Source: a virus
Virus record (IMG/VR): IMGVR_UViG_3300033153_006650
Span: 1-47,752 of that record
Reading direction: 5' to 3' (one strand)
Length of the DNA: 47,752 bases
Shown here: one piece after another, positions 30,541 through 46,391 of the stretch
Layout: each line of letters opens with the position of its first letter
Position numbering within the stretch: the stretch's first letter is position 1
Notes under the pieces: generated by a model
Database searches by the model: none
What the model was told of the DNA's origin: nothing
What the model saw: only the letters and a program-made list of their open reading frames with translations
Translations under genes and position numbers: made by a program

Positions 30541-30622
30541 GTTTGTAGGAGTAACGCCGGTTTCAACTTCTTCAGTCATATCAATTATCCTGTAGTTGGC
30601 GCAGCTTACTTTTAGGTTATAC
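30541..30622 (-). repeat. attC-like element R8 (truncated)
   Basis: Core GTATAAC on the minus strand (30616-30622) is followed by AAAGTAAGCTGCGC, the type C inner arm also seen in R2 and F7. The expected right arm and core are missing; the convergent hairpin lies there instead. A 16-codon open frame with start (MTEEVETG) lies inside. It marks the distal end of the left array. Confidence 0.6.
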
Positions 30623-31255
30623 CCACTGAGATACCATAGCCTCAGCAATGCCATGGTAAGTCTTTGACCTGTCACGCTTGCGGGTAGCAGATGGTGGCAT
30701 GTTCCACACTCGCTGTTCCCTGCCTGCCACTATATTTGTTGGCTGCAATGGCTCAAGGCCATGCAAGGCCAAACCTGTTTTTTTAGTCTCACCATGCCCA
30801 AATTGCCAAGGCTGTATATACTGCACGTTTTTTAAGTGCGGAAAAATCACGCTTACTGGATTCTCAAGAGCTACCCTGTCACTGTTTTTTTTTGCCAACT
30901 CCCAGAGTTTTAACGTCCACTCAATAGCCTGCAACCGTTTCTGGTGGTGGATCATCCCTTTTCCATACCACCTGTTACCGCTCACTGCCATTGCCGTACA
31001 GTCCGGGTGCAATATAATAAGATCCCACTGCCGGGTTGGTATCACCTCCATAATATCTTGCTGGTAATGCCAGTCAGGATTCCCACGGGTTGGCTGGATG
31101 TCACAGGAAAAAGCAGGGATTCCGGCAGCACGAAAAGCGGAACAAACCGTTTGCGATTCCTCGCAGCCTATCAAAACGTGGGTATAACAAGGCGTATCAC
31201 GCTGAATCCGGAGGTTTGTCGGGCTATTTCCTGTTTTTGTAGTTGGTTGGTTCAT
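30617..31255 (-). CDS. Phage SAM-dependent DNA methyltransferase (cytosine-C5-like fold), cassette gene
   Basis: A 212-residue protein. IGCEESQTVCSAFRAAG is a SAM-binding motif I seen in small phage DNA methyltransferases; LHPDCTAMAVSGNRW corresponds to the motif IV region and ENPVSVIFP to an ENV-like motif VI. It may modify cytosine, but the catalytic PC is not standard (HPDC), so specificity is uncertain. The start and first ~24 residues (MNQPTTKTGNSP...) lie inside attC-like element R7 and the reading frame crosses its right core as Cys-Tyr. The stop TAA is part of the R8 core. Confidence 0.72.
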   Translation of the reverse strand: MNQPTTKTGNSPTNLRIQRDTPCYTHVLIGCEESQTVCSAFRAAGIPAFSCDIQPTRGNPDWHYQQDIMEVIPTRQWDLIILHPDCTAMAVSGNRWYGKGMIHHQKRLQAIEWTLKLWELAKKNSDRVALENPVSVIFPHLKNVQYIQPWQFGHGETKKTGLALHGLEPLQPTNIVAGREQRVWNMPPSATRKRDRSKTYHGIAEAMVSQWV

Positions 31256-31310
31256 CAAGTCCTCATCGTTTTTTATTAGTCCGGCTCAGGTGTACTTGTC
31301 GGTGTTATCT
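31182..31310 (-). repeat. attC-like element R7
   Basis: 129 bp. Left core AGATAAC (31304-31310), 12-nt spacer, inner arm ACCTGAGCCGGA (31280-31291). Right inner arm TCCGGATTCAGC, with one extra T against the left arm, then right core GTTATAC (31182-31188). It contains AGGA and the start codon of the methyltransferase gene. Confidence 0.8.
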
Positions 31311-31529
31311 TTTTCCACCTTGCCAATCATGCTCAATGTCATTTCCAACTTCATCAGGATGTGGTGGCAATTCATCCGCTGTAAATTCTCTAATCCGTAC
31401 CTCCAACAATAGAGTTTGGGCTTTTATTTTTCTCAGTCTCCATTCGGTAAGTTCAGCTAATAAGGTCGTTGCTGCTGACCCTTGCGGCAAATCCGGGCTT
31501 TCCGTTTTTTGTTCTGGTTCATCCTTCAA
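31305..31529 (-). CDS. Small hypothetical cassette protein
   Basis: A 74-residue protein, acidic and helical (LLAELTEWRLRKIKAQTLL). TTG 31529 with GAGG seven bases upstream is inside attC-like element R6. Translation crosses the damaged right core as Leu-Leu (segment PDLPQGSAATTLL). The same peptide is encoded by the matching element F2 at 44431-44517. The stop TAA lies in the R7 core. No family recognised; the start is less certain than in neighbouring genes. Confidence 0.5.
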   Translation of the reverse strand: MKDEPEQKTESPDLPQGSAATTLLAELTEWRLRKIKAQTLLLEVRIREFTADELPPHPDEVGNDIEHDWQGGKR

Positions 31530-31581
31530 AAATAATCCTCATGTTAAATTAGTCGGGCAGCAAAACTCAACTGCGTTATAT
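31455..31581 (-). repeat. attC-like element R6 (type B, right core altered)
   Basis: 127 bp. Left core ATATAAC (31575-31581), inner arm TTTTGCTGCCCG, right arm GGGTCAGCAGCAA with the extra T. The right core is ATTAGCT instead of GTTATAY, so the conserved G at the crossover position is lost. Nearly the same sequence as F2 (44378-44505). Confidence 0.72.
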
Positions 31582-31593
31582 TTACTTTTCAGC

Positions 31594-31704
31594 TGGTATA
31601 GGTGACAGGAATCGAACCTGTGCCTCAACGCCAATAACCAATTATGGCTCTCTCGTGTTCTCGCCACGAGGTCTCGTCGTACGCTTCCACTACGCCACAC
31701 CCAT
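31594..31704 (-). tRNA. tRNA-like gene as sole content of a cassette (possible Leu, anticodon GAG)
   Basis: Read on the minus strand. A 7-bp acceptor stem (ATGGGTG with CACCTAT, one G-U), TG at 8-9, D-arm text GCGTAGTGGAAGCG, T-stem ACAGG/CCTGT with loop TTCGATT, and encoded ACCA at the 3' end. A 6-bp stem CTCGTG/CACGAG with loop GCGAGAA gives anticodon GAG, and a long variable arm (GCCATAA...TTATTGGC) fits a type II tRNA. The gene is 111 nt, too long: about 10 extra bases lie before the anticodon arm and position 33 would be C. It may be degenerate or unusual. Confidence 0.58.
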
Positions 31705-31711
31705 CCTAAAA

Positions 31712-31839
31712 ATATAACAAGGCCAGTTCACCGGAAGCGGGAGGTCTGGCGAGCATTCCCTTATTTATTAAATTTATCTTATTCTAAAAAATCATTGCCG
31801 GTTTATAAGTCCCGCTCCGGTAACTTTAGGGTGTTATAC
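31712..31839 (-). repeat. attC-like element R5
   Basis: 128 bp. Left core GTATAAC (31833-31839), inner arm ACCGGAGCGGGA, right arm TCCCGCTTCCGGT with one extra T, right core GTTATAT (31712-31718). It is nearly identical over its length to F5 (45567-45695) in the other array, 14 kb away on the other strand. Confidence 0.85.
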
Positions 31840-31841
31840 GC

Positions 31842-32030
31842 TTACTGTGTTGGCGGGCATCCAGTTGGGATCCAGCACTGGTCTCTTATCACCCAACGCC
31901 AACTAAGCCCGTCGGCCAGTTTCTCTGGTGGGAATGAAACGCCGCATCCAAAAAAATAACGGAAAAAGCGTATAACAAAACGCTTCACCTGACCCTTTTT
32001 TATTGCCTGAGTTTCGTTTTCTTCTGTCAT
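31842..32030 (-). CDS. Small hypothetical cassette protein
   Basis: A 62-residue protein, basic in the first half (KKGQVKRFVIRFFRYFF), with two late cysteines. ATG 32030 is inside element R4, with AGGATAAG upstream, and the frame crosses the right core as Val-Ile. The stop TAA lies just before the R5 core. Function unknown; the amphipathic basic start could contact nucleic acid or membrane. Confidence 0.55.
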   Translation of the reverse strand: MTEENETQAIKKGQVKRFVIRFFRYFFGCGVSFPPEKLADGLSWRWVIRDQCWIPTGCPPTQ

Positions 32031-32096
32031 TGTCTTATCCTAAAAAAGTCTGTGCCGGTCTATTATTCCGCTCAGCTAAGATCTACTGCGTTAGGT
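31970..32096 (-). repeat. attC-like element R4
   Basis: 127 bp. Left core ACCTAAC (32090-32096), spacer GCAGTAGATCTT, inner arm AGCTGAGCGG; right arm GGGTCAGGT and right core GTTATAC (31970-31976). The inner arms pair less well than in other members. Holds the start of the 31842 gene. Confidence 0.7.
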
Positions 32097-32354
32097 TTAC
32101 TTTTCCCAATCCAAAGACTCAGCCCATTCAACAAGCTCTTTCTTTGTCGTAAAATCTTTGCTTCTAACTTTCATCGCCATTGCTATGGAGCCAAAGGCGA
32201 ATATTAAAAACATCGTGCCAGTTAAAAAAGTCCACCACTTGCTGTCACCACTCAGCCATATACAAAATATCAATGAAGAAAAAGTAACCAAATCGCTAAA
32301 AATACTCTCTAATAGTGACTGTGTTCTGTCAATTACCACTGTCTTGTCTGCCAT
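32097..32354 (-). CDS. Membrane protein, cassette gene
   Basis: An 85-residue protein with two hydrophobic segments (SDLVTFSSLIFCIWLS and TFLTGTMFLIFAFGSIAM), separated by GDSKWW, then a charged C-terminal helix (KKELVEWAESLDWEK). Unlike most cassette genes its start (ATG 32354) lies after the right core of R3. Small two-helix membrane proteins can serve in superinfection exclusion; no evidence beyond topology. Confidence 0.65.
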   Translation of the reverse strand: MADKTVVIDRTQSLLESIFSDLVTFSSLIFCIWLSGDSKWWTFLTGTMFLIFAFGSIAMAMKVRSKDFTTKKELVEWAESLDWEK

Positions 32355-32361
32355 ATTATCA

Positions 32362-32487
32362 ACCTAACAAGGTCAGCCGCACCTGAACAGGGAGGGTCAG
32401 CTATCCACTTGTCTATTAAATTTTTAGTTAATCAAAAAGATGTGCCTGTTAATTAGTCCCTGTCAGGTAATCTTGACTGCGTTAGGC
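32362..32487 (-). repeat. attC-like element R3 (best core match)
   Basis: 126 bp. Left core GCCTAAC (32481-32487) and right core GTTAGGT (32362-32368) fit the integron consensus RYYYAAC / GTTRRRY exactly. Inner arms ACCTGACAGGGA (32457-32468 complement) and CCCTGTTCAGGT pair with one extra T in the right arm. Spacers are 12 nt on each side. Confidence 0.88.
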
Positions 32488-32667
32488 GATGCCTACGTCA
32501 TTATTTACGACACCACACCAACAACAATCTATATCCAAATCAACACCACATGTCGGGCATAATCGCCTAACAGGGTCAGTCAAGACGACGATTGCGCTGT
32601 CCTCTTTTTCCTGTTTTAACCTCAATGCCCTAATTGTTCGCCTTTTTTCTGTTTTTTGCGTATTCAT
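32482..32667 (-). CDS. Small zinc-ribbon-like cassette protein
   Basis: A 61-residue protein with CPTCG and CCWC, a likely four-Cys zinc site, after a basic N-terminal half. ATG 32667 lies inside element R2 at the same relative place as the start at 46185 in F7. The peptide VVLTDPV across the right core matches VVLTDLV of that gene. The stop TAA is in the R3 core. A longer upstream in-frame reading exists, but it would overlap the preceding gene. Confidence 0.55.
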   Translation of the reverse strand: MNTQKTEKRRTIRALRLKQEKEDSAIVVLTDPVRRLCPTCGVDLDIDCCWCGVVNNDVGIA

Positions 32668-32692
32668 CGCGCGCCTTACTTTAAGGTTATTA
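32565..32692 (-). repeat. attC-like element R2 (type C)
   Basis: 128 bp. Left core TAATAAC (32686-32692), CTTAAAGTAAGGCGCGCG inner arm shared with F7, right arm AATCGTCGTCTTGACTGACC and right core GTTAGGC (32565-32571), an exact GTTRRRY. Confidence 0.78.
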
Positions 32693-32890
32693 CCACCATC
32701 CGCCTTGTATCGCACCTGCTGCTCTATGGCATTTTTCACAACAATTAATCATAACAACAGCTGAATTTTTCCTAACTTCCAGCCCGTCGCTGTTTTTCCT
32801 CCCACAAATCGGGCAGATAACAAATCGGTCAACCTGAACCGGCAGGGAGCCGGGGTCATCGCCTTTCTTTTTGGTTTTGTCTTTTATCAA
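32690..32890 (-). CDS. Small zinc-ribbon cassette protein
   Basis: A 66-residue protein with FVICPICGRKN and INCCEKC, a clear four-Cys zinc ribbon. The start (ATG 32890) lies inside element R1; the frame crosses the right core as Val-Ile directly before the first CPIC. The stop TAA lies in the R2 core. Likely a small nucleic-acid or protein adaptor; no family assigned. Confidence 0.6.
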   Translation of the reverse strand: MIKDKTKKKGDDPGSLPVQVDRFVICPICGRKNSDGLEVRKNSAVVMINCCEKCHRAAGAIQGGWW

Positions 32891-32939
32891 GTGATTTCCC
32901 TCTTTTATTAGTGCTCAGCTTACCTTGATTGCGTTATAA
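32815..32939 (-). repeat. attC-like element R1
   Basis: 125 bp. Left core TTATAAC (32933-32939), 12-nt spacer, arm AGCTGAGCAC; right arm CCGGTTCAG with the extra T, right core GTTATCT (32815-32821). Holds the start of the 32690 gene and the stop of the 32934 gene. Confidence 0.75.
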
Positions 32940-33140
32940 ACACATGTGCCTTTTTAACACACTCATAGATCTATAAACTCCGTTTGTTTTTGCCAGGTTT
33001 ATTAGTGCGACATCTACGGTTGTAGCATTGTCTGCCATTTCTTCGAGATTGTTTGCAAGTTTTTGCAGCTTATTTAATATAACAATTCCGTCAACCTGAA
33101 CCGCCACTGATTTGGTCTTGGCTGCTATTTTTCCTTTCAT
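32934..33140 (-). CDS. Small helical cassette protein
   Basis: A 68-residue protein (MKGKIAAKTKSVAVQVDG, then LNKLQKLANNLEEMADNATTV). Strong AAGGAG ribosome-binding site; the start lies in element R0 and the frame crosses its right core as Val-Ile. Helical coiled-coil-like core; no family recognised. First gene of the left array after the RuvC-like gene. Confidence 0.6.
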   Translation of the reverse strand: MKGKIAAKTKSVAVQVDGIVILNKLQKLANNLEEMADNATTVDVALINLAKTNGVYRSMSVLKRHMCL

Positions 33141-33197
33141 TTAAAAATCTCCTTATTTATAAAGTTGCGGTCAGGTTACTCAGTACTATATTTATAT
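33077..33197 (-). repeat. attC-like element R0 (left core degenerate, inside the resolvase gene end)
   Basis: Inner arms ACCTGACCGC (complement of 33167-33176) and GCGGTTCAGGT, again with the extra T; right core GTTATAT (33077-33083). The left core would be ATATAAA (33191-33197) with the final C lost, within the last codons of the resolvase gene. It marks the junction of the array with the phage backbone. Confidence 0.7.
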
Positions 33198-33691
33198 GTC
33201 AAGCCAACGGCAAGCGCCGACATCGCATGACTTGTTACCCCGTACAATGCGCCCGGTTGTTTTTTTGTGCCTATTTGCGGGGTTTTACCACCCCCCCCAG
33301 CCGGGAAAATGTCAAGAATACGCTGTCTAATATTTTTGTCTTTTGCGCGCATTGAACCGCAAAGGAACATTTTGATATCTTTTCTGTATATTTTCGTGGT
33401 TTTTGAAAAATCAAAAGCCTGCCGGAACCTGCCAATCCACTCCACGGTGTCAAATGTTGTTGCGCCTACTGCCATGCCATAGCTCGCAATCCCCTCTATT
33501 GCCATGTGCATGACACCGTATTTTTTACGGAAATATGACACCCCGTTAAAATCTGCCAGCGCATTTAATAGGGAATTATTCTCGTAATCAGATTTTGAGA
33601 ATAATATATTTTTACCATCAAAAACGACAACTCCGCTGTGAGTTGTGCCGGGATCAATGCACAGAATAGGCTCTGATTTTATTAAATTCAT
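33176..33691 (-). CDS. RuvC-like Holliday junction resolvase
   Basis: A 171-residue RNase H-fold nuclease. Motif I ILCIDPGTTHSGVVVFD with Asp13, motif II MAIEGIASYGM with Glu66, and a C-terminal SHAMSALAVGLTY helix carry the expected catalytic layout. It likely resolves branched DNA before packaging or during recombination. It lies next to a cassette array made of foldable attC-like DNA, but a link is only speculation. Its 3' end forms part of element R0. Confidence 0.85.
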   Translation of the reverse strand: MNLIKSEPILCIDPGTTHSGVVVFDGKNILFSKSDYENNSLLNALADFNGVSYFRKKYGVMHMAIEGIASYGMAVGATTFDTVEWIGRFRQAFDFSKTTKIYRKDIKMFLCGSMRAKDKNIRQRILDIFPAGGGGKTPQIGTKKQPGALYGVTSHAMSALAVGLTYKYSTE

Positions 33692-33716
33692 TTTTTTATA
33701 ATTTCCATATTTTTTA

Positions 33717-33755
33717 AAAACCCGGTGCCAGCGTGTTGCGCCGATACCGGGTTTT
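33717..33755. terminator. Bidirectional intrinsic terminator
   Basis: 10-bp stem AAAACCCGGT / ACCGGGTTTT with a T4 on the plus strand and T5 on the minus strand. It lies between the small RNA copy 2 and the resolvase gene. Confidence 0.75.
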
Positions 33756-33833
33756 AATCATTTGCCACCAATACGCGTATTATCGCCGCGCCCGGCTTTG
33801 TTGGTGCGGTTTGTCATAATATTTCCTCTGAGC

Positions 33834-33938
33834 AAAAAAAAAGCCTTAACCAACTCTCACATGCTTGCGGGCATCATCACTTGGATGTTTGAGAGCTGGT
33901 TAAGGCTTAGTGATTGCCCCCGCAAGAAAGCTGTATTT
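33834..33938 (-). ncRNA. Structured small RNA, copy 2 (pseudoknot-like, self-terminating)
   Basis: On the minus strand: CTTGCGGG (33926-33919), AAGCCTTAACCAGCTCTCA (33908-33890), CCCGCAAG (33871-33864), TGAGAGTTGGTTAAGGCTT (33859-33841), then a T-run of about nine. Arm order A-B-A'-B' equals copy 1, with one mismatch in the 19-bp long stem and a small CATC/GATG hairpin between. It begins AGCTTTCT like copy 1. Long-stem sequences differ between copies while architecture is kept. No convincing gene lies in 33692-34096. Confidence 0.7.
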
Positions 33939-33945
33939 ACTAAAA

Positions 33946-33975
33946 ACCATACCACCAAAACCACCAATCAGTCAA
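33946..33975 (-). promoter_or_regulatory. Promoter of small RNA copy 2
   Basis: Minus-strand TTGACT (33975-33970), 18-nt spacer, TATGGT (33951-33946). The start point would fall near 33938, just before AGCTTTCTTGC. Weaker match to consensus than the copy 1 promoter and without a clear ACGAATA box. Confidence 0.5.
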
Positions 33976-34014
33976 GTAATTTCTACAACCTGTATCGTTA
34001 TCTCTAAAAGCAAC

Positions 34015-34055
34015 GTAAAGGGGTCAAAATGAAAGATTAAGCGCTGACCCCTTAC
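34015..34055. repeat. Inverted repeat downstream of the 34097 gene
   Basis: AAGGGGTCA (34018-34026) pairs with TGACCCCTT (34045-34053), loop 18 nt. No T-run follows on either strand, so it may be a processing or protein-binding site rather than a terminator. Confidence 0.4.
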
Positions 34056-34096
34056 AATGAGACACCTACACCCCACTTATTTATCATTTATCACTC

Positions 34097-34705
34097 TTAG
34101 TACGCAGCTTGAGCAGGTATGTCTAAAGAATTGTAACCAGGATTAGCATTTCTGCCCTTACCTCGCAAATTTTCATCCTCCCATATACCGGATGGTCGGC
34201 TCATAAATTTTTCAGCCATTCGTTCGCGTTCGTTTTTTCTTTGTAGCGTTTCAGCGTCTTGTTTAACCAAGGGTGGCGCCACTGTTGCGGGTTTTATTTT
34301 TACATTTTTAAACCGCTGTGGTTGCAGCGGTTTAAATAACGCTGATTCAGCACCTCCTTTTTCCCATTTTTCCAATCTGTTTAAACTGCTGGCATCAGTG
34401 CCGCCGATCTGTGCGTGTAATAATTTTACCGTCGAATATTTGTTGCCGACAATAAAAATCCTCGCCTTTTTCAAAATCCCCAAGCTTTCTTTCAGGACAA
34501 ACACGGCAATTTTATTTTCCCAGACGGAAATGTCGTCGCCATATTTTGTCCGGGTTTTGCTCAGGGCCGATGGACTGATATTGTATTGCTCTCCAAATTC
34601 ACCGGTCTTTAGCCCTGCTTTTTTACCGACAAAATAGAACGGTAGCAGGCCAACCATTTTAATTTTGATTTTCGGCATTACAAACGTGTTTAGTTTTTTG
34701 TTCAT
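34097..34705 (-). CDS. Putative DNA-binding protein with a helix-turn-helix
   Basis: A 202-residue basic protein. Residues about 35-55 (KTGEFGEQYNISPSALSKTRTKYG) read as a helix-turn-helix. Residues about 60-95 are strongly helical or beta; the C-terminal third is disordered, Pro/Lys/Gln-rich. Overlaps the following small gene's start by four bases. Could bind the nearby AT-rich region or regulate the array; family not recognised. Confidence 0.55.
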   Translation of the reverse strand: MNKKLNTFVMPKIKIKMVGLLPFYFVGKKAGLKTGEFGEQYNISPSALSKTRTKYGDDISVWENKIAVFVLKESLGILKKARIFIVGNKYSTVKLLHAQIGGTDASSLNRLEKWEKGGAESALFKPLQPQRFKNVKIKPATVAPPLVKQDAETLQRKNERERMAEKFMSRPSGIWEDENLRGKGRNANPGYNSLDIPAQAAY

Positions 34706-34860
34706 TTTGTTTGCTCCTGTGTTTTGGTTTTGTCGTATAGCTCCTGCATCCTATCAGCGCATTCGTGCAGAGCTGTTTTAGTCACTCCCTGCGGATCATA
34801 GATATCACTGGCAAGGATTTTTAAAACTTTTATTAAGATTTTGGTTTTTGTTTTTTTCAT
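34702..34860 (-). CDS. Small basic helical protein
   Basis: A 52-residue protein (starts MKKTKTKILIKVL) with GAGG upstream of ATG 34860. Lys-rich start, then an acidic helix (ALHECADRMQELYDK). Co-transcribed with the HTH gene by a four-base overlap. Function unknown. Confidence 0.5.
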   Translation of the reverse strand: MKKTKTKILIKVLKILASDIYDPQGVTKTALHECADRMQELYDKTKTQEQTK

Positions 34861-34890
34861 TTTGCCTCTATCATTGGATGATACCGTCAA

Positions 34891-35259
34891 AAGTGACTGC
34901 TTGTAGCCGATATGTAAAATGTTGATATTATTACATAAGTTAATTATGTAGAATTTGGACGTTTTCGTTTTTTGTTAACAAAAACAACTGACTACAAATA
35001 AGTAGTCGTTTTTATTCCCCCTTATAGACCCGCTAAGGGACTCCCTGTAATCCTCCTATAGAGAGAGAATCTTTATACACGCGTAATATATATGTATATG
35101 TATATTATACTATATATTATATAATATATAGAAATCATTGAAGAAATTTAAGTAAAAAGTAGTCATCATGGATTTTTCTTTAACACAAAAACTATATATA
35201 TCACTATAATATCGGTTAAAAGCCATACCGTCACTTTTACTGGCCGTCTATAGTTTTAC
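34891..35259. other. AT-rich intergenic region, candidate replication origin
   Basis: 369 bp without a gene. Contains TACATAA/TTATGTA inverted repeat (34932-34950), a perfect palindrome TTTTTGTTAACAAAAA (34969-34984), a GACTAC/GTAGTC hairpin followed by GTTTTTATT (34990-35015) that looks like a plus-strand terminator, and an almost pure TA tract around 35086-35145. It lies beside the primase-helicase gene. Such combination is common for phage origins; no iterated initiator boxes are clear. Confidence 0.45.
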
Positions 35260-37470
35260 CTACTTCAACGCTATATATGCTTGATATTCCCCACCTTTTA
35301 CGCTTTTTTTACTTGTCTTGATTGTCCTGATTGCAATCAACCCTTCAAGCAAATCGTCAAACACCTCTACCCGTTCACGTTTACGCAACTTGGAAAATGG
35401 TTTAGTTCTTCCAATATACTTAATATTTATACCCCGTGTACCTGCTGCCCTGATAGCTGCAAGGAATGCCATTTTATCCCGCTCAAAATCTGAACTACTT
35501 AAATGCTGTTTTAAAAGCCTGATAGTTGGAGCTGCCAATTGTTCAACAAATTGAATAGCCCATGCTGTATTCTGCACGCTAATCGTTTTTTCACTGCATG
35601 ATACCGCCACGGTTAATGCAATCCGCATAGCCTGTTCACGTAATCTGCTAACCATGGGAGCTAATTTGACCCCTTGGAGCTTTTTACCCCATGCGAGATT
35701 ACTATCTTCAAACTCAACCAACAGTTTGTTGCATCCATCATCAAAAGGAACTGTTACAGTTTTCCTGTCGTCAAACTTCTCGAACTCATCAAGTTTCATC
35801 TCTAAACCTGTTGAGTCCGAATACCGGCCAATATCAGCACACCATTTTTTGATATTATCCGGGACGGGATCAGGAACACGAAAATCAAGGTTCGATGTTT
35901 TTTGCTCAGTTGATACACCGAAAAGCCAACGATTAAGAAAACCATCGTCTATCATTTCCGTTGTAACTGAATCCATCAATGTGGTTTGAGTGGTAACACC
36001 GCAAACCGTAACGGCTGGCCGTGCAAGTTTATCATGGGTGCCGTCAACGTATTGTTTACCGTCTATGGAGTCATGGGCAGAACTAAAGCATTCCATCAAC
36101 TTGGATACCAGGTTTTTATCTTCCCCGCTTTGCGCTACCTTCTGCAACCTGCGCCCCATTTCATCTGACAGGATTATCTGTCTTGGTATAAAACCAAGGC
36201 TTTTGATCAACGCTGATTCTCCTGTAAACCAGTTAGCACCTACCATTTTTTCAAGCCCTGATTCGGTTAATATGTTTCTGATTACGCTTTTCACGGCATC
36301 TTTACCGGTTCCCGATTCAGCAATAAACATGAAAAATAACGAAGAATAATTATTGTAATTTGTAACGTAATTTCTTGAACAAATAATGGAGCCTATGGCA
36401 AGCGCCACCATTGGTGCAAAAATATTACTGTTCCCGCTGGAATGCTTGTTATAGTAGTCTTCGACCTCTCCTAATATCCCAGGCACTCGGCTCATCGTGA
36501 ATGGTTGTTCTATTTCCGCCTGCTGGTAGACTTCACCCGCCTTTATTATGTTTTCGCCTGTAGGAATGTCAAAAACAGCTTTAACAGCATCAACGCCGCG
36601 TTCAGTGAACAGGTCATTAAAATCAGTACCCGTTATACCCTCTGGAAAAACTACCCGTAAATCGTGCTTTTGCCCCACTGCTATAGCTTTCCCCAGTCCT
36701 ACGTTTTTCTCTTTTTTGTGGTCATTATCTGCACAAATTATCACCTGAACCGTGCCAAGTTTTTTCTTGAAATACGGCAACAACTCCATGGTAACAGATT
36801 CTAAATTACCAGCATCAAAAGCCACAAACACGTCGAACCCTGTACACTCTGCAATGCTGGCTCCTGTTGCAAATCCTTCGCAGATACAAATAATTTCATT
36901 GTGATTGCCGTCACCATTTATTTTGTGGAAACATCCTTTTTTCTTCCCTCCATAAAGGAACTTTTTATTAATCTTTTTGTCTTGTGATTTATCAAAAATC
37001 TCTTGATAAGTTGTGATGTTTTTGCCAATATCATAAACTGGCAAGATTATTCCCCCGGTCTCATCATTAAATAAAGCATCATGTGGCTTGATTTGCTTGG
37101 TTACAAGATATGGATGATTAGCAGGGCAAATATCAAGAGAATCAATCAACTCTTGAGCTGTTTTTGCTGATTCTTTATTCCTTGCAAGTTCTGCTTGGTT
37201 TGCCTGTATCCTGATTTGTTTGATAGCTGCCAGTTCAGGTTTAGTCATCCCCTGCCAGCCGTTGCCCTTCCTGACCTCTACCCGTTCACCTGTCTTCCAG
37301 TTGCCGACGACTCCGACGGTCTTACCATTGATGATATTGAGGTAATACCACCCGTGCTTCCCTTTACCATTGCCTATGAGCGGTACCCGTTCCGGCGCGG
37401 CTCCTGTTGTCTCTATTGGTGCTGATATTTCCACCCCTATAGATTGCGCAGCTTCAATGAATTGTTGCAT
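35260..37470 (-). CDS. Primase-helicase (TOPRIM + DUF3987-type ATPase)
   Basis: A 736-residue replication protein. N-terminal zinc-less DNA-binding part, TOPRIM core near 190-260 (ICEGFATGASIAEC, CADNDHKKEKN), then an ATPase domain with Walker A AESGTGKD near 387 and ILSDEMGRR near 430, typical of DUF3987 phage/plasmid primase-helicases. It should prime and unwind at the origin. It starts three bases after the HNH gene stop. Confidence 0.88.
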   Translation of the reverse strand: MQQFIEAAQSIGVEISAPIETTGAAPERVPLIGNGKGKHGWYYLNIINGKTVGVVGNWKTGERVEVRKGNGWQGMTKPELAAIKQIRIQANQAELARNKESAKTAQELIDSLDICPANHPYLVTKQIKPHDALFNDETGGIILPVYDIGKNITTYQEIFDKSQDKKINKKFLYGGKKKGCFHKINGDGNHNEIICICEGFATGASIAECTGFDVFVAFDAGNLESVTMELLPYFKKKLGTVQVIICADNDHKKEKNVGLGKAIAVGQKHDLRVVFPEGITGTDFNDLFTERGVDAVKAVFDIPTGENIIKAGEVYQQAEIEQPFTMSRVPGILGEVEDYYNKHSSGNSNIFAPMVALAIGSIICSRNYVTNYNNYSSLFFMFIAESGTGKDAVKSVIRNILTESGLEKMVGANWFTGESALIKSLGFIPRQIILSDEMGRRLQKVAQSGEDKNLVSKLMECFSSAHDSIDGKQYVDGTHDKLARPAVTVCGVTTQTTLMDSVTTEMIDDGFLNRWLFGVSTEQKTSNLDFRVPDPVPDNIKKWCADIGRYSDSTGLEMKLDEFEKFDDRKTVTVPFDDGCNKLLVEFEDSNLAWGKKLQGVKLAPMVSRLREQAMRIALTVAVSCSEKTISVQNTAWAIQFVEQLAAPTIRLLKQHLSSSDFERDKMAFLAAIRAAGTRGINIKYIGRTKPFSKLRKRERVEVFDDLLEGLIAIRTIKTSKKSVKGGEYQAYIALK

Positions 37471-40257: not shown

Positions 40258-40292
40258 GACATATAAGATTAATTTTAAACAGGAGAAAAACA

Positions 40293-40547: not shown

Positions 40548-40557
40548 GAGGTGAACA

Positions 40558-40731: not shown

Positions 40732-41447
40732 AACCACAAACATTAGAACAGGCAACCGCTGGAAACGGTAACTTTGTTTTGTACGGGCCGAGTGGGTCAG
40801 GAAAAACGGCCAGCCTTGCAACCCTTGACCCTGGCAATACTGAGATTATAGCGACAGAGGACGGTTTGCGAACTCTAAAGGATATGTCGCTGGATTATCC
40901 AGAATTGAACAAACTGACAGTATATAATGCAAATACAATGGCTGAGGCGCAACAGGCTTATGAAGCTGTTGCAGTATCCGGTAAAAAGTATCTGGCTATT
41001 GATAGCCTGACCAAATTAGGAGATATTTGCCTGGCTCAAGAGATGGTCGCAACGGCAAATGATGCCCGCAGGGCATACCCAGCAATGGCTTCAAAGATGA
41101 CGAATATAATTGACCTGTTTAACAATCTTGACAAGACAGTAATTTTTATATCTCAAGAGGAACTTGTTAACGATGATGCTTTCGGGCGTTTTGATTACAA
41201 ATACGCTCCAAGTATCCCCGGCAAAAAGTTTGCAGCTAAAACGGCTTATTTCTTTGATTTTATCTTTGTGATGAGAACACGGGTTGCAGAAGACGAAAGC
41301 ATTGAGCGAAAATTTCAAACGGATTTACATGGGGGGGATTATCTGGCAAAATCAAGATCAACACGGTTGATGGTTTTTGAGGATCCTAATTGGATGGATA
41401 TTTTTAATAAAACAGCAAATAACACAAAAGAGGTTACAAATGATTAA
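40728..41447 (+). CDS. Sak4-like recombinase ATPase (AAA_24)
   Basis: A 239-residue ATPase: Walker A GPSGSGKT (about 20-27), Walker B YLAIDSLTKLG, and a RecA-core layout. It matches phage nucleotide-binding proteins of the Sak4/AAA_24 type, which anneal ssDNA with help of a phage SSB. GTG 40728 overlaps the upstream stop. The SSB-like gene follows directly, supporting the assignment. Confidence 0.8.
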   Translation: MKPQTLEQATAGNGNFVLYGPSGSGKTASLATLDPGNTEIIATEDGLRTLKDMSLDYPELNKLTVYNANTMAEAQQAYEAVAVSGKKYLAIDSLTKLGDICLAQEMVATANDARRAYPAMASKMTNIIDLFNNLDKTVIFISQEELVNDDAFGRFDYKYAPSIPGKKFAAKTAYFFDFIFVMRTRVAEDESIERKFQTDLHGGDYLAKSRSTRLMVFEDPNWMDIFNKTANNTKEVTND

Positions 41448-41907
41448 TTTTGGAGCAGGAATTGGATCGCAGGACGGGGAAAATTTTCAAGAAGCAGGCG
41501 GGAAACCGTTGCCGCCGGAAGGTTGGGGCGAATTTGCCATTATGAAAAGCGAAGACATTGACGGCAACCTGAAATTTTTTGTACAAAACAAAGCGGGGGT
41601 CGATGGTGATATTTTCCTTGGATTTGCCGGATCAGAAGTTTGGCAGCAGGAACAGGCCAGAAATACCCTTGGGAAGATAATTGATGTAACCGGCTGTCAG
41701 ATCGTTGTCAAAACCTTTCAGGATGCTATGGCATTAAATGGTTTAAAACTGGATATTAAATTTCAGCACGTTAACAGCAAAAGCCTCAAGGATGATGGTA
41801 CCCCGTTTAAAAATGCGCGCTCAAAAAACTATGCCCCCGCCGGGACAAAGAGCAGTGTGTCTGCTCCGCCTCCTGCTGCTCAAGATACCGCTGACAGCCC
41901 CTGGTAA
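41440..41907 (+). CDS. Probable phage single-stranded DNA-binding protein
   Basis: A 155-residue beta-rich protein with disordered C-terminus ending in DTADSPW, an acidic aromatic tail like those by which SSB proteins recruit partners. Adjacent to the Sak4-like ATPase, with 8-nt overlap, the usual partner arrangement. ATG 41440 is preferred over an earlier in-frame start inside the upstream gene. A GCCGGG/CCCGGC hairpin follows at 41917-41935. Confidence 0.68.
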   Translation: MINFGAGIGSQDGENFQEAGGKPLPPEGWGEFAIMKSEDIDGNLKFFVQNKAGVDGDIFLGFAGSEVWQQEQARNTLGKIIDVTGCQIVVKTFQDAMALNGLKLDIKFQHVNSKSLKDDGTPFKNARSKNYAPAGTKSSVSAPPPAAQDTADSPW

Positions 41908-41955
41908 AAAAACCTTGCCGGGTGAAATTCCCGGCTTAACCCTGCGAGGATAAAA

Positions 41956-43161
41956 ATGGATTGGACGGAACCTGAAAAAGAAGGCAACGCACTCCAGAAA
42001 AGCGTTGCGGACATGAACAGCATACAAGCCGATTATTCAACTTTTGATATCGACGAGTCAGCTATTGTTGCAATTGAAAAACAATACCCTGTGGCTGAGT
42101 TGCCGGAGCGCCTTGAGAGCATGGATGAGGTAAAAGAAATTCAGGGCCAAATCAAGGGGATTAAAGCTGTTTTTAAACCTGGTGTTGAGTCAATCACCCC
42201 GGTTAAAAGTGCGGCATTCCGGCTGCATAAACGTATCAAAGCGGTTGAAAACAAATTTCTTGAACGCAAAAAAGGCGTTCTTGATCCGCATACAGCGCTT
42301 GTAAAAGAATACAACGAACGTATAGAACGAGAGCTGCAAGAAGCGGAGCTGCACGAAAAAGAGCGGGTATCCTCAATTAATCAACGCATTGTTGCAATGC
42401 CAAATGTAGTTAATGACCTGCTAATCGCTGATAGCTCTGCTGTTGACACCGCACTGTTGACTGTCAGGGAAGACGATTTATCATGGGCAGAAGAATTCGT
42501 CACGCCTGCAATGACCGCTCGTACTGAGTTGATCAAACAGCTTGAACAGCTCTATACCATGCGGATTGATACAGAGACCGCCGCCGAACAATTCGCTATC
42601 AACGCACAATTTAAAAAAGAAGAGGATGAACAGCGGGCGTTAGCGGTTGCCAGGCAGGAAAAAGAAAACGAAATCAAGTTGATCCCGGTAAACATGATAG
42701 AGTCGTCATCTGCTGATATTGAGCGTAAAATAGTTGATTTGCAAGAGTTCATGAACCCTGCAAATACCGGTTACGTCCAGCCTGTTATTGATCAACTGTC
42801 CCGGATTAAAGTCTCAGCGATTTCCCGTGAAGAAATAGCGGCGGAAAAAGCCAAGATTGAAGCTGAAAAAACCAGGCTGGCAAAGATTGAGTCTGACAGA
42901 TTAGCGGCAATTGCAAAAGATGAAGCTGATAAAAAAGAACAGGAGGAACGACTTGAGCAGGAAGCAAAGGAGAAAAAGGAGAGAGAATCGGCAAAAGCCC
43001 AGGCGGATAAAATTGAAGCTGAGCGGGTTGCTGAGTCAGAAAAGAACCTGCAAGCGAACATGTCAAAAACCATCAACCACATGAAGGAATTTGATAGCGA
43101 ATCATTGTTGGTAGGTGCGATTTATAATGGTAAATTTGAGCATTTACGGTGGGCAAATTGA
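41956..43161 (+). CDS. Coiled-coil protein of the recombination operon
   Basis: A 401-residue acidic protein. Long Glu/Lys/Ala coiled coil at about 285-375 (for example AEKAKIEAEKTRLAKIES), a mixed N-terminal part and a short C-terminal domain (NHMKEFDSESLLVGAIYNGK). Proteins with this composition often lie beside phage recombinases, but their role is unknown. Its GAGGATAA upstream gives a good start. Confidence 0.65.
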   Translation: MDWTEPEKEGNALQKSVADMNSIQADYSTFDIDESAIVAIEKQYPVAELPERLESMDEVKEIQGQIKGIKAVFKPGVESITPVKSAAFRLHKRIKAVENKFLERKKGVLDPHTALVKEYNERIERELQEAELHEKERVSSINQRIVAMPNVVNDLLIADSSAVDTALLTVREDDLSWAEEFVTPAMTARTELIKQLEQLYTMRIDTETAAEQFAINAQFKKEEDEQRALAVARQEKENEIKLIPVNMIESSSADIERKIVDLQEFMNPANTGYVQPVIDQLSRIKVSAISREEIAAEKAKIEAEKTRLAKIESDRLAAIAKDEADKKEQEERLEQEAKEKKERESAKAQADKIEAERVAESEKNLQANMSKTINHMKEFDSESLLVGAIYNGKFEHLRWAN

Positions 43162-43844
43162 TTCGCGCCTCAACACTCAGCTCTGGATCAGCCGGGAATT
43201 CAATCCTCGTTGATATTGACGACACCTGCATTTTACTCGATGCAGGGTTGCCGATCAAAACGCTAAAATCACGATTAAAAGGCGTCGCTTATTCAATAGA
43301 TGACATAAAGCACGTCTTCTTTTCTCACGACCACCAAGATCATTACAGAGATGACACAAATAACGCTCTTGGATTGGACGGCTACAGTGCCGATAAAGAA
43401 AACTTCAAAATCAGCTTTTTTAAACTCCATCATGATGCTCCGTGTAGAGGCTATCGGGTAGAGGATCAGACCGGCAACGTGCTGGTATATATCACTGACA
43501 CCGGTCATATGCCGGCGGACACTTACCGGTTCCTGCGTGGTGCCAATATCATAATTTTAGAGTTCAATCACGAAGTTGACATGCTCGAAAAATGTGAGTA
43601 TTCCAGTGATTTAAAAGAGCGAATTGCTGAAAATCATCTTAGCAATGAGCAGGCACATGATTTAATTGCCAGTACTGGCAGTGACAATTTAAAACACCTG
43701 TTTTGCCACCACCTGAGCAGTAAAAACAACACTCCTGAAACGGTTGAATTTGCCGCAAGATCGGCGCTGCATGAGTGCGGGAGTAGTGCCGAGGTTATTG
43801 TTTGTAATCAGGACAAACCGAGTCGCGTGGTTACTGTTATTTGA
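43149..43844 (+). CDS. Metallo-beta-lactamase-fold hydrolase
   Basis: A 231-residue MBL protein. HxHxDH is seen as SHDHQDH, plus ITDTGHM and the later HHL site. Relatives include YycJ/ExoX-type nucleases and phage phosphodiesterases, so a DNA- or RNA-directed activity is likely. GTG 43149 is used, but TTG 43158 overlapping the upstream stop is possible. Last backbone gene before the right cassette array. Confidence 0.78.
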   Translation: MGKLIRASTLSSGSAGNSILVDIDDTCILLDAGLPIKTLKSRLKGVAYSIDDIKHVFFSHDHQDHYRDDTNNALGLDGYSADKENFKISFFKLHHDAPCRGYRVEDQTGNVLVYITDTGHMPADTYRFLRGANIIILEFNHEVDMLEKCEYSSDLKERIAENHLSNEQAHDLIASTGSDNLKHLFCHHLSSKNNTPETVEFAARSALHECGSSAEVIVCNQDKPSRVVTVI

Positions 43845-43873
43845 TAAGTTGCTTATAAATGGAGAGTGAATGG

Positions 43874-44056
43874 ATGAAAAAATTTATTATTAAATATAAT
43901 TATGGATATGGAGAGGAAATAGAGGTTGTCGACGCGGAGGATGAACTTGAAGCGAAAAACATAGCCTATGAATATTGGAAAGCTGGTGCGGAAAATGAAG
44001 CTGTTTACGGTGTAATCGGTGAGGCGACCAAAGAGTTGTTAGAAGAGCATTTATAA
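43874..44056 (+). CDS. Small acidic protein, first gene of the right array
   Basis: A 60-residue protein (MKKFIIKYNYGYGEEIEVVDAEDELEAKNIAYEYW-type alternation; beta hairpin then helix). ATG 43874 has GGAG nine bases upstream. The stop TAA is part of the left core of element F1. Resembles small phage proteins with an alpha/beta ASCH-free fold; function unknown. Confidence 0.6.
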   Translation: MKKFIIKYNYGYGEEIEVVDAEDELEAKNIAYEYWKAGAENEAVYGVIGEATKELLEEHL

Positions 44057-44178
44057 AACCGTTGAGCTTACCTGAGCGAATTAATAGAGCAGGAAAGCCT
44101 TTTTAGGCTACCGGCAAACCTGAAAAATTAGACGACAACTCGCACTACCTTTAGCTTCAGTTAGAGCGTTTTGTTATT
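44052..44178 (+). repeat. attC-like element F1
   Basis: About 127 bp. Left core TATAAAAC (44052-44059, one change from TATAAC), arm ACCTGAGCGAA (44070-44080), right arm TTTAGCTTCAGTT with extra T, right core GTTATTT (44172-44178). More diverged than the others. Confidence 0.68.
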
Positions 44179-44191
44179 TTGCGGCTTGAAT

Positions 44192-44383
44192 ATGAAATAC
44201 GAATTATTTGATTATGAGTTAAAGGAGGAAACAGTTATTGAGGCTCCTGGGGTAGCAGAAGCTATGCTTGAATATTTACCATGGCCTACAATTGATTTAA
44301 AAATATATTTTGAACCTGCCCATGGACGTTGCACGGTGATAGATATAGTAACCGACTTCAAATATCAGCTACAAATAATATAA
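44192..44383 (+). CDS. Small cassette protein
   Basis: A 63-residue protein, acidic in the first half (YELKEETVIEAPGVAEAM), beta at the end (RCTVIDIVTDFKYQLQII). Start after the right core of F1; no strong ribosome-binding site. The stop TAA forms part of the F2 core. No family recognised. Confidence 0.5.
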   Translation: MKYELFDYELKEETVIEAPGVAEAMLEYLPWPTIDLKIYFEPAHGRCTVIDIVTDFKYQLQII

Positions 44384-44505
44384 CGCAGTTGAGTTTTGCT
44401 GCCCGTACTAATTTAACAGGAGGATTATTGATGTTTAGAGGAAAACCACAAATATCAGCGGGCCCGGATTTGCCGCAAGGGTCAGCAGCAACGACCTTGT
44501 TATAC
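44378..44505 (+). repeat. attC-like element F2 (type B)
   Basis: 128 bp. Left core ATATAAC (44378-44384), TTTTGCTGCCCG arm, right arm GGGTCAGCA with extra T (44479-44487), right core GTTATAC (44499-44505). Same subfamily as R6 and F6. It contains AGGAGG and a start codon at 44431. Confidence 0.82.
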
Positions 44506-44517
44506 CTCTGTGGATGA
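44431..44517 (+). CDS. Leader peptide encoded in attC-like element F2
   Basis: A 28-codon frame with ideal AGGAGG, reading MFRGKPQISAGPDLPQGSAA and crossing the right core as Leu-Leu. It ends at TGA 44515-44517, four bases into the next gene (GTG 44510), so it could deliver ribosomes to it by termination-reinitiation. The same peptide segment PDLPQGSAATTLL occurs in the 31305 gene. Confidence 0.5.
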   Translation: MFRGKPQISAGPDLPQGSAATTLLYLCG

Positions 44518-44713
44518 TTTACGCAGGGCTGCACATTGCGTATACTTGGCAACCGATAAGGACGTTGCAAAAGATTTATCTGACAAAATGACTGGGGCTG
44601 CAAACCTCATTGATGAGTTGCAGGATTTCGCAATCTGGATGACAGGTTGTGGGTATGATTTTTGTCAGCATGAATATTTTTGCAAGAAACGGGATGAGTT
44701 ATTAAAGGTATAA
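44510..44713 (+). CDS. Small Cys-containing cassette protein
   Basis: A 67-residue protein, helical, with TGCGYDFCQHEYFCKK near the end. GTG 44510 has no ribosome-binding site of its own and overlaps the leader peptide encoded by F2, so coupled translation is likely. The frame is also open upstream through the attC-like element. The stop TAA is in the F3 core. Confidence 0.5.
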   Translation: MDDLRRAAHCVYLATDKDVAKDLSDKMTGAANLIDELQDFAIWMTGCGYDFCQHEYFCKKRDELLKV

Positions 44714-44835
44714 CGCCTAAAAGCTACCTGAGCGAAACCCATAAAAAAGGAAAGACACTTTATGCAGAACAATAAAACTAAATCAGGAAAAGCAAGCCGG
44801 ATACCTTTCGATTCAGGTGGGCTGTTTTGTTATGC
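44708..44835 (+). repeat. attC-like element F3
   Basis: 128 bp. Left core GTATAAC (44708-44714), arm ACCTGAGCGAAA (44726-44737), right arm TTTCGATTCAGGT with extra T (44806-44818), right core GTTATGC (44829-44835). Contains AAGGAAAG and the ATG of the next gene. Confidence 0.85.
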
Positions 44836-44983
44836 GTGTACGGCCAACGGGCATGACATGGCAACTGGAGCCGAAAATAGCTGTTGGTTGGATAGTAACC
44901 AGGCTGAAAATTGTTGGATAGAAAGACAACCGAGCAAAAAGGAAGATTGCCCATATTGGGAGTTAGTAGACATTGACGTATAA
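44762..44983 (+). CDS. Small Cys-rich cassette protein
   Basis: A 73-residue protein. The first 24 residues (MQNNKTKSGKASRIPFDSGG) are encoded by element F3 and the frame crosses its right core as Cys-Tyr (LFCYACTANG). The body has five further Cys (CYAC, CWLD, CWIE, CPYW). Stop TAA in the F4 core. Possible zinc binding; function unknown. Confidence 0.55.
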   Translation: MQNNKTKSGKASRIPFDSGGLFCYACTANGHDMATGAENSCWLDSNQAENCWIERQPSKKEDCPYWELVDIDV

Positions 44984-45106
44984 CACCGACAAGACTACCT
45001 GAGTGGGTTTTTTAGATAAGGAAAATCAATTGATGAACCGACAACTGAGTAAACCGGGAAAGTTTTCAAAGATACCTCCCGCTTCAGGTGCGGCGCATTG
45101 TTATCT
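44978..45106 (+). repeat. attC-like element F4
   Basis: 129 bp. Left core GTATAAC (44978-44984), arm ACCTGAGTGGG, right arm CCCGCTTCAGGT (45078-45089) with extra T, right core GTTATCT (45100-45106). Confidence 0.85.
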
Positions 45107-45128
45107 GTTTTTTTTGCGGACTTGGTAA
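45033..45128 (+). CDS. Leader-like peptide reading out of element F4
   Basis: A 31-codon frame (MNRQLSKPGKFSKIPPASGA, then CY across the core) with AAGGAAA upstream. It stops in the cassette just before the promoter box at 45133, so it is cut off from the cassette's own genes. It may be a remnant of read-through expression. Confidence 0.35.
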   Translation: MNRQLSKPGKFSKIPPASGAAHCYLFFLRTW

Positions 45129-45132
45129 TAAA

Positions 45133-45185
45133 ACGAATAAACTTGAATTAAAAGCATTGACAAAGGATAGGCTCCGGTGTATATT
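45133..45185 (+). promoter_or_regulatory. Cassette-internal promoter with the shared upstream box
   Basis: ACGAATAAACTTGA (45133-45146), 10 nt, TTGACA (45157-45162), 17-nt spacer, TATATT (45180-45185). Box, spacing and -35 context match the promoter at 15481-15533. RNA should start near 45192. Confidence 0.75.
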
Positions 45186-45232
45186 GAAGGTAAGAAATGA
45201 GGAAAACAACCAACCTTAACGGAGCCGACAAA

Positions 45233-45412
45233 ATGACAGATTTAATGTGGACACCACCAAACGCTGAAGTAAATAGCAAAAAAATAGCAGCACTTGAAGC
45301 AATAGAGGCTAAAGATTCAGAATGCACATTTTGTGGATCTGCTAAGGATTCTGGTCAACCTTGCCCAAAATGCGGTTGTGAGAAAGGCGGAAGCGATGAA
45401 GCAAACAGTTAA
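45233..45412 (+). CDS. Zinc-ribbon protein with own promoter
   Basis: A 59-residue protein with CTFCG and CPKCGC, a four-Cys ribbon at about residues 31-50. ATG 45233 with GGAG eight bases upstream is preferred to ATG 45197, which would lie almost at the predicted RNA start. Overlaps the following gene. Possible regulator or adaptor. Confidence 0.6.
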   Translation: MTDLMWTPPNAEVNSKKIAALEAIEAKDSECTFCGSAKDSGQPCPKCGCEKGGSDEANS

Positions 45413-45572
45413 AAAGAAGAAAGCCGGGAGAAATCCCGGCTCAACTGGCAAGGAGCTGAAAAAGTCCTTCACGATCCGAGCCTACCCCAGTAAGGTCGCC
45501 AAATTAAAAGAGCAAGGGCAGACTTTGCAGCAAGCGGTTGACATTGGGGTAGCACTGGGACTGGACAGATAA
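45396..45572 (+). CDS. Ribbon-helix-helix-like small protein
   Basis: A 58-residue basic protein. After a Lys-rich start, KKSFTIRAYPSKVAKLKEQ and LQQAVDIGVALG look like strand-helix-helix, an RHH DNA-binding pattern. Overlaps the zinc-ribbon gene by 17 nt. The stop TAA is in the F5 core. A DNA- or RNA-binding role is inferred. Confidence 0.5.
   Translation: MKQTVKKKKAGRNPGSTGKELKKSFTIRAYPSKVAKLKEQGQTLQQAVDIGVALGLDR
45422..45441 (+). repeat. Perfect hairpin inside the RHH-like gene
   Basis: AGCCGGGA-GAAA-TCCCGGCT, 8-bp stem with a GNRA-type tetraloop. No T-run follows. Similar GCCGGG hairpins occur at 6620, 41917 and 47154. Confidence 0.6.
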
Positions 45573-45695
45573 CACATTAAAGTTACCGGAGCGGGACTTA
45601 TAAACCGGCAAGAGTTTTTTAGAATAAGATTAATTTAATAAATAAGGAAAGAATCCCGGCAACCTCCCGCTTCCGGTGGACTGACCTTGTTATAT
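45567..45695 (+). repeat. attC-like element F5
   Basis: 129 bp. Left core AGATAAC (45567-45573), arm ACCGGAGCGGGA (45585-45596), right arm TCCCGCTTCCGGT with extra T (45665-45677), right core GTTATAT (45689-45695). Near copy of R5. Confidence 0.87.
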
Positions 45696-45708
45696 TTGGA
45701 GAAAGGAT

Positions 45709-45840
45709 ATGTATAACTACTATATGGATGAGTATGATTGGATTGAGCCTGTAAAACGAATTATTCGACCAACGCCGAAAGCAATAAACATGAAACAGCA
45801 GTGGAAAAAACGTAGAGCTTCCGGCAAAAAGAAGAAGTAA
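45709..45840 (+). CDS. Very small basic cassette protein
   Basis: A 43-residue protein, Tyr/Trp-rich at the start (MYNYYMDEYDW) and Lys/Arg-rich at the end (WKKRRASGKKKK). ATG 45709 has AAAGGA five bases upstream, both after the right core of F5. Stop just before the F6 core. Nucleic-acid binding possible. Confidence 0.5.
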   Translation: MYNYYMDEYDWIEPVKRIIRPTPKAINMKQQWKKRRASGKKKK

Positions 45841-45967
45841 ATATAACACTTTAAGTTTTGCTGCCCGAACTAATTTTAACGAAAGGATTTTTGATGATTG
45901 AACCAATTAAGCAAAAAAGCGATATTCCGGTTACAGTAGAGGGTCAGCAGGAACGACCTTGTTATGT
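45841..45967 (+). repeat. attC-like element F6 (type B)
   Basis: 127 bp. Left core ATATAAC (45841-45847), TTTTGCTGCCCG arm, right arm GGGTCAGCA with extra T (45941-45949), right core GTTATGT (45961-45967). Holds AAAGGA and the next start. Confidence 0.82.
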
Positions 45968-46142
45968 GCCGGTGCTTCACCCCTGGTTTGGGAAGGGTTG
46001 CCCTTTTTTAGTGGCGCAATGGGAAGACGAATATGAAGAGGATGAACCGGAGTTGGTTCATTGCAAACATAAAAGCAACACTGAGCCTGATTTTGAAGGG
46101 AATTGTTACAAAGCAAATTGCCCTTTATTGACAAGCTGGTAG
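45894..46142 (+). CDS. Cassette protein reading out of element F6
   Basis: An 82-residue acidic protein. The first 23 residues (MIEPIKQKSDIPVTVEGQQ) come from F6 and the frame crosses its right core as Cys-Tyr (RPCYVPVL). The body has PWFGKGCPFL and four late Cys. Stop TAG just before the F7 core. The RPCY segment also occurs in the upstream open frame of the 44510 gene. Family not recognised. Confidence 0.58.
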   Translation: MIEPIKQKSDIPVTVEGQQERPCYVPVLHPWFGKGCPFLVAQWEDEYEEDEPELVHCKHKSNTEPDFEGNCYKANCPLLTSW

Positions 46143-46145
46143 GAC

Positions 46146-46275
46146 ACATAACACCTTAAAGTAAGACGCGCGGGGGATAATATAATGTGCGAGTACAACA
46201 AAGAATGTGATTGCCACCTATTCAAACCTGAAAAGAAAGCAGATGTAAGCGTCGTTTTGACTGACCTTGTTATAT
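46146..46275 (+). repeat. attC-like element F7 (type C)
   Basis: 130 bp. Left core ACATAAC (46146-46152), CTTAAAGTAAGACGCGCG arm shared with R2, right arm AGCGTCGTTTTGACTGACC, right core GTTATAT (46269-46275). Confidence 0.78.
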
Positions 46276-46364
46276 TGCCGGATGCCTGCGAAAAATGTAC
46301 TTATGTTTTTTGCACTGACGGGTGTGAGTGGATACCAGATTTAATAAAATCCCAGGCAATATAA
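46185..46364 (+). CDS. Small Cys-rich cassette protein, last of the right array
   Basis: A 59-residue protein with seven Cys (CEYNKECDCH, CEKC, CTDGC). ATG 46185 with GGGGG upstream lies inside F7; the frame crosses the right core as Val-Ile (VVLTDLVILPDAC). The stop TAA is in a last left core ATATAAC (46359-46365), after which no further arms follow. Metal-binding small protein, function unknown. Confidence 0.58.
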   Translation: MCEYNKECDCHLFKPEKKADVSVVLTDLVILPDACEKCTYVFCTDGCEWIPDLIKSQAI

Positions 46365-46391
46365 CAACCCTATCACCCCACTCCGCATAAC

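Follow-up and report, generated by a model that had tools for sequence, protein, structure and literature searches.

The Two Arrays

The window analyzed here is the whole of IMG/VR record IMGVR_UViG_3300033153_006650, a tailed-phage genome of 47,752 bp in which elements with the layout of integron attC sites, each preceding a small gene, form two arrays. Two replication operons diverge from ~38 kb, where the sign of the GC skew also switches, and the arrays occupy their promoter-distal ends: the left operon terminates in the R array (minus strand) and the right operon in the F array (plus strand). Overall, we found 15 attC-like elements (7 on the plus strand, 8 on the minus strand), plus one half-element and one lone core, all at the positions given on both strands by an earlier reading of the letters (the original prediction). 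The "about sixteen elements" of that reading come to 15, with the qualification that R0 (left side shortened), F1 (left core ATAAAAC) and R6 (right core ATTAG) are degenerate copies, and that R8 is only half a site. The bit scores listed below come from a covariance model trained on 14 of the window's elements, taken on the gene strand.

44049-46278, plus strand: F array, F1 to F7 and the small genes they precede (seven covariance-model matches, 79.7-122.8 bits)
44049-44188, plus strand: F1
44377-44509, plus strand: F2
44707-44838, plus strand: F3
44977-45109, plus strand: F4
45566-45698, plus strand: F5
45840-45970, plus strand: F6
46145-46278, plus strand: F7
46360-46365, plus strand: lone core TATAAC at the close of the F array, with a TAA that serves as stop codon for the last cassette gene
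31179-33183, minus strand: R array, R0 to R7 and the small genes they precede (eight covariance-model matches, 44.2-114.1 bits)
33183-33074, minus strand: R0
32940-32812, minus strand: R1
32693-32562, minus strand: R2
32488-32359, minus strand: R3
32097-31967, minus strand: R4
31840-31709, minus strand: R5
31582-31454, minus strand: R6
31311-31179, minus strand: R7
30560-30623, minus strand: R8, a left attC half with the leader start, its right half missing, which ends the R array

As predicted, the cores of R3 fit RYYYAAC/GTTRRRY exactly. Most of the others read RTATAAC/GTTATAY, and a deviation of this type from the core consensus is present also in the Vibrio and Tetrasphaera phage TJE1 controls. 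Of the 42 AAC/GTT core cells in the alignment, 39 are paired. With clusters of 7 sites (~2.2 kb) and 8 sites (~2.0 kb) and no nearby integron integrase, the arrays have the composition of clusters of attC sites lacking integron integrases (CALINs), for which at least two neighboring sites are needed; they do not make up a complete integron, because the record has no intI gene. The original prediction had seen no tyrosine recombinase, and this was borne out: a search for tyrosine and serine recombinases (PF00589, TIGR02249 and PF00239) found no match in the record, which may itself be slightly incomplete.

A Conserved attC Fold

The evidence for the fold comes from the whole set of elements, given that arm scores of single elements are often not significant relative to shuffles. 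Arms pair better with their own partners than with the arms of other elements (none of 20,000 permutations reached the observed pairing), and an 18-pair structure in fixed register (alignment A2) pairs in 87.6% of cells, compared with 31-50% for slid versions. Two-sided changes occur in 13 of the 18 pairs, and the covariation score is 0.439 versus 0.173 in shuffles (0 of 500). Unprompted, RNAalifold arrives at an identical set of helices: R box, L box and stem. Structure is thus conserved above sequence, and a fold retained despite sequence divergence is a hallmark of attC sites.

The order within the fold is core box, spacer, 3-bp L box, extrahelical base (EHB), 6 bp, a second extrahelical base and the remaining stem, and exactly this 3-EHB-6-EHB geometry is found in class 1 and TJE1 attCs (fetched records). 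The elements therefore have the L boxes and stem, the extrahelical bases at fixed spacing, the unpaired central spacer and the variable terminal loop of attC sites. The attC layout with complementary arms, as originally proposed, is upheld by the covariation, by the unprompted fold and by matches of the covariance model to known attCs (see below), whereas two details of the proposal need revision. The 12-nt spacers had been taken as plain, but each contains a 3-bp L box; and the single extra T in one arm, which is indeed present in 14 of 14 aligned elements, is accompanied by a second extrahelical base (G in 9 of 14), both located in the 3' arm of the gene strand. Folding elements one at a time, one of the checks originally suggested, is not decisive: F5, R3, R5 and F6 behave as expected, and the remaining elements do not stand out. 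Two attC-type arrays on a phage without a detected integrase are well supported by these results.

The covariance model provides a further test of attC identity. It recovers 15 of 15 elements and nothing else in the window, and it also detects class 1 attCs (E 3e-6), Vibrio and Shewanella attCs, and those of Pseudoalteromonas phage PH101. There was no convincing match in 71 other phage records. Scans of 35 whole records of large terminase (TerL) relatives (48-63% identity) revealed no attCs, and 36 further primase-related records gave four weak matches. Two of these (G062 and G041) proved on reading not to be attCs, and the remaining pair match the model over its loop part only. Because canonical attC families do not share one L-box register and were misaligned by MAFFT, we abandoned a model of canonical attCs in favor of the reverse test, the window model against known attCs.

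Polarity Relative to the Genes

A canonical cassette has its attC 3' of the gene, and recombination uses the non-coding strand. The original prediction had assumed this normal layout, but here each of the 15 elements has inverted polarity, and start codons and leaders are mostly within the attCs. Every element fits best with the extrahelical bases in the right arm (mean of 10.6 of 12 pairs, versus 8.07), whereas among canonical attC controls the left arm is best in 11 of 14, tied in 3, and the right arm in none. Consistent with this, the window model, built on the gene strand, matches the canonical attCs of three records (L004, L007 and L008) exclusively on the non-gene strand. On the gene strand, the L stems hold 14 G.T wobbles and 1 A.C, which argues that selection for pairing acts on this strand; the count is not fully independent, because 9 of the 14 G.T wobbles share a column and some of the elements are related. 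Also, the core-flanking TAACAA...(G/T)GTTA reads on the non-coding strand, as it does on canonical top strands. The direction of the genes is secure because the R7 cassette encodes a methyltransferase-like protein on the minus strand.

In integrons, the choice of the bottom strand is set by attC structure (unpaired features), with an effect of ~1000-fold (PMC8946536). Combining this rule with the extrahelical bases, the wobbles and the core signature, the coding strand, in contrast to canonical cassettes, is predicted to recombine and to be cleaved at the TAA^C of the left core.

Cassette Genes

The reading frame begins in the attC loop in 9 of 15 cassettes (F3, F6, F7, R0, R1, R2, R4, R6 and R7). 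Often preceded by a Shine-Dalgarno sequence, these frames run through the right arm and right core and end at or near the next left core. Short leader frames lie in the loops of F2 and F4, and in the F1, F2, F5 and R3 cassettes the gene starts past the core. Relative to the right core, F3, F4 (leader), F6 and R7 all have their start at exactly -67, and in nine of the fifteen cassettes the final stop is exactly the core TAA. The right core is read in different frames among the elements. Cassette features discussed here are as follows.

30617-31258, minus strand: R7 cassette gene, methyltransferase-like (phrog_757, E 1.9e-51)
31597-31704, minus strand: R5 cassette, tRNA-like gene (RF00005, 43.5 bits; gathering threshold 29)
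44762-44983, plus strand: F3 cassette gene, 73 amino acids, starting in the attC loop and stopping at the next core
45891-46142, plus strand: F6 cassette gene, starting in the attC loop

Homologues of the R7 methyltransferase align mostly from residue 24-28 on, just beyond the right core, which indicates that the first ~25 residues of the R7 protein are a leader encoded by the attC. Similar attCs occur in the two arrays with unrelated genes behind them (F5/R5, 88%; F2/R6, 83%; F4/R7, 69%). This would fit attC types being reused with new genes, although recombination is not proven by it.

Some cassettes have features of their own. The tRNA-like gene carries an insertion of ~37 bases in the region of the anticodon loop. 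Its detection by ARAGORN, with the odd anticodon att, requires that introns be permitted; under default settings the program reports no tRNA in the window, and a comparison of the whole window with Rfam at gathering thresholds returned nothing. The F2 leader peptide (MFRGKPQISAG...LLYLCG; 44431-44520, plus strand) has a stop that overlaps the start region of the next gene, as in translational coupling. A promoter-like site, TTGACA-17-TATATT (11 of 12 positions), lies in the F4 cassette at 45157-45185 (plus strand), just before the next small gene. Tiny cassette proteins with paired CxxC motifs appear zinc-ribbon-like (32690-32890 and 32482-32664 on the minus strand; 45088-45219 and 46185-46364 on the plus strand), and none has a family match above threshold.

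Relatives

One distant relative is IMG/VR record IMGVR_UViG_3300005611_000065 (G001), with a primase ~27% identical to that of the window. At the end of its replication operon, an equivalent locus, it has attC-like elements, two of them strong (G1a and G1b, with 11.5 and 12 of 12 pairs and extra bases in the right arm) and two weaker (G1c and G1d). Their polarity is inverted as in the window, but the genes are different, and there is no PF00589 match. Among the G001 genes is a 322-amino-acid frame that is radical-SAM-like by reading only. A second record, G002 (L096 1708-2482), carries a tyrosine recombinase gene and a single attC. This attC is canonical in polarity and lies at the 3' end of a gene for a DNA methyltransferase, the frame of which enters it. 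The PH101 attCs (L141; 26528-26586 and 27930-27988, minus strand, with a third copy near 27310-27390) are on the same strand as the annotated genes, and so appear inverted. These cases suggest that the inverted layout recurs in phages but is not universal, given that TJE1 and G002 are canonical.

Other searches returned little. Exact attC patterns found no relatives in IMG/VR or GTDB contigs, and only weak matches were returned by BLASTN, for which both arrays were compared with phages and the F array with plasmids. Among these matches, the longest is to a methyltransferase gene of Desulfofustis phage LS06-2018-MD01. That phage has no covariance-model match, and a geometry scan of it gave one candidate, which is about the shuffled rate.

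Genes and Features around the Arrays

The record encodes a large terminase, a portal, a major capsid protein, a tape-measure protein, a Toprim/DUF3987 primase, a helicase and a metallo-beta-lactamase-fold hydrolase. The terminase is at the left end and an HNH gene at the right end. Terminase and HNH genes commonly flank a packaging site, and from these end positions the record is probably near full length. Three features adjoin the arrays.

33176-33691, minus strand: RuvC-like Holliday junction resolvase gene (phrog_1770, E 3.6e-14), adjoining the R array upstream
43859-44056, plus strand: phage gene of 65 amino acids, adjoining the F array upstream, its stop within the F1 left core
46386-46437, plus strand: perfect hairpin followed by T-rich sequence (GCCTAATTGATAA...TTATCAATTAGGCTGTTTT), read directly just past the F array

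The hairpin is probably the terminator of the F-array operon; its long loop explains its absence from an automatic hairpin listing. A part for the resolvase in resolving attC junctions would be conjecture.

Interpretation and Alternatives

We consider it likely that these are two CALINs at the ends of divergent phage operons, with a recombinogenic coding strand and exchange at TAA^C by an integrase supplied in trans. Because no recombinase was found in the record, exchange would need one from elsewhere: an integron integrase of the host or another element would act on the coding strand when replication or transcription makes it single-stranded. The crossover would fall within the left core (TAA^C), where the preceding gene has its stop codon, and the cassette unit in phage orientation would be C, then attC (usually with Shine-Dalgarno, start codon and leader), then the gene body and TATAA. 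Exchange at this point would keep ribosome-binding site, leader, gene and stop whole, and the phage operon, which the hairpin closes, would read the swapped-in cassette. Placement as the lagging-strand template favors attC folding (PMC8946536). Were the replication origin to lie between the two operons, both arrays would have their coding strand in this position; GC skew, which switches sign at that point, also tracks gene direction. Our data show the elements themselves, their covariation, geometry and polarity, where the starts and stops fall, and a recurrence in a second phage; from these we infer the dependence on IntI, the crossover position and actual cassette exchange.

Several points weigh against this interpretation. 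There is no integrase in the window; R0, F1, R6 and R8 are degenerate; several elements are related to one another, so that element-wise counts are not fully independent; G002 has canonical polarity; and no close relatives were found in which cassette gain or loss could be seen. A more specific version, which we put forward only tentatively, is a form of cassette belonging to phages themselves: attC would be a mobile translation-start module before each small gene, with the coding strand as its recombinogenic strand; if the origin lies between the operons, a host integrase would gain access to the sites through infection itself, and small genes would be traded at stop codons with hosts and other phages. 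The inverted polarity and the start signals inside most sites suggest a phage-adapted form of the integron gene-swapping system, which is best known for the spread of antibiotic resistance.

Could the elements be descendants of attCs that have lost recombination and are kept as operon punctuation, giving small genes their ribosome-binding sites and leaders? A phage without an integrase, the degenerate copies and the conserved start position in the loop would all agree with this, but we think it unlikely, because almost all elements retain extrahelical bases, core boxes and compensatory changes, none of which is needed for translation alone. In addition, near-identical attCs stand ahead of unrelated genes, and G001 has other cassettes at the equivalent place. 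Both the stop of homology among attCs of the same type at the right core, where the gene body starts, and the fusion-like appearance of leader and gene body could be explained by cassettes in normal orientation, with the non-coding strand recombining at the G^TTATA of the right core and leaders thereby swapped between genes. This is very improbable, as every structural sign of strand choice indicates the coding strand, and the varying frames of the right core mean that a crossover there would often break genes.

The remaining alternative is that the elements are RNA hairpins (for termination, processing or translation control) that came to resemble attCs by convergence. Although their location between operon genes and their ribosome-binding sites and start codons are what such hairpins might show, we find this scarcely credible: there is no T-tract behind the hairpins, the attC layout is exact, down to the core boxes and two extrahelical bases, the elements match no Rfam family at gathering thresholds, and a model built from them finds true integron attCs but nothing convincing in the 71 other phage records. 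A reading as terminators only was rejected because T-tracts are absent and the extrahelical bases are kept.

If two trans-mobilized CALINs are the correct interpretation, some phages hold integron cassettes in which attC is both recombination site and translation start, and phages would be active traders in a cassette pool that also carries resistance genes. The arrays would also constitute a natural test of how gene orientation and exposure of single strands relate to attC polarity. They would provide cassettes whose attC-gene join can be seen, in the form of a leader fused to a known enzyme, and this bears on the way in which cassettes arise. Inverted arrays would escape surveys in which attC polarity is not set against the direction of the genes, and bench-tested PH101 looks like an example.

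Comparison with Known Systems

Contrary to the original view that such arrays are not a standard finding, Qi et al. (2023; PMC9892861) reported CALINs in 17 phages and IntI1 activity on 5 of the 6 sites tested. What appears new here is the inverted polarity and the starts inside attC; we found no description in the open-access literature of gene-inverted attC arrays with start codons inside attC. Like the CALINs of Qi et al. (2023) in Tetrasphaera phage TJE1, Polaribacter phage P12002L and Pseudoalteromonas phage PH101, those of the window are integrase-less attC clusters, theirs being in virulent phages. Unlike theirs, with one short array, the window has two arrays, 15 sites and start codons within attCs. 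The cassette orientation of TJE1 and PH101 was termed typical, with no mention of a PH101 inversion (PMC9892861); by our comparison, polarity is canonical in TJE1, inverted in the window and apparently inverted in PH101. Two PH101 sites were among the phage attCs that recombined into attI1 with IntI1 (PMC9892861), and these may be the pair found by our model.

The elements share with chromosomal and class 1 attCs (Vibrio VCR-type and aadA-type) the core boxes, spacers, L box, variable loop and the gene stop at the core, as well as a T and a G as the extrahelical pair of the strand that recombines. In the chromosomal and class 1 systems, however, attC follows the gene and the recombinogenic strand is non-coding, whereas in the window attC precedes the gene and the coding strand would be the recombinogenic one. 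An atypical orientation within an integron is also known from the reverse integrons of Treponema, in which intI is turned relative to the cassettes (PMC3607928, PMC4909258). The Treponema cassette genes still stop at the R'' core of attC, whereas in the window it is the genes that are turned relative to their attCs, with no intI.

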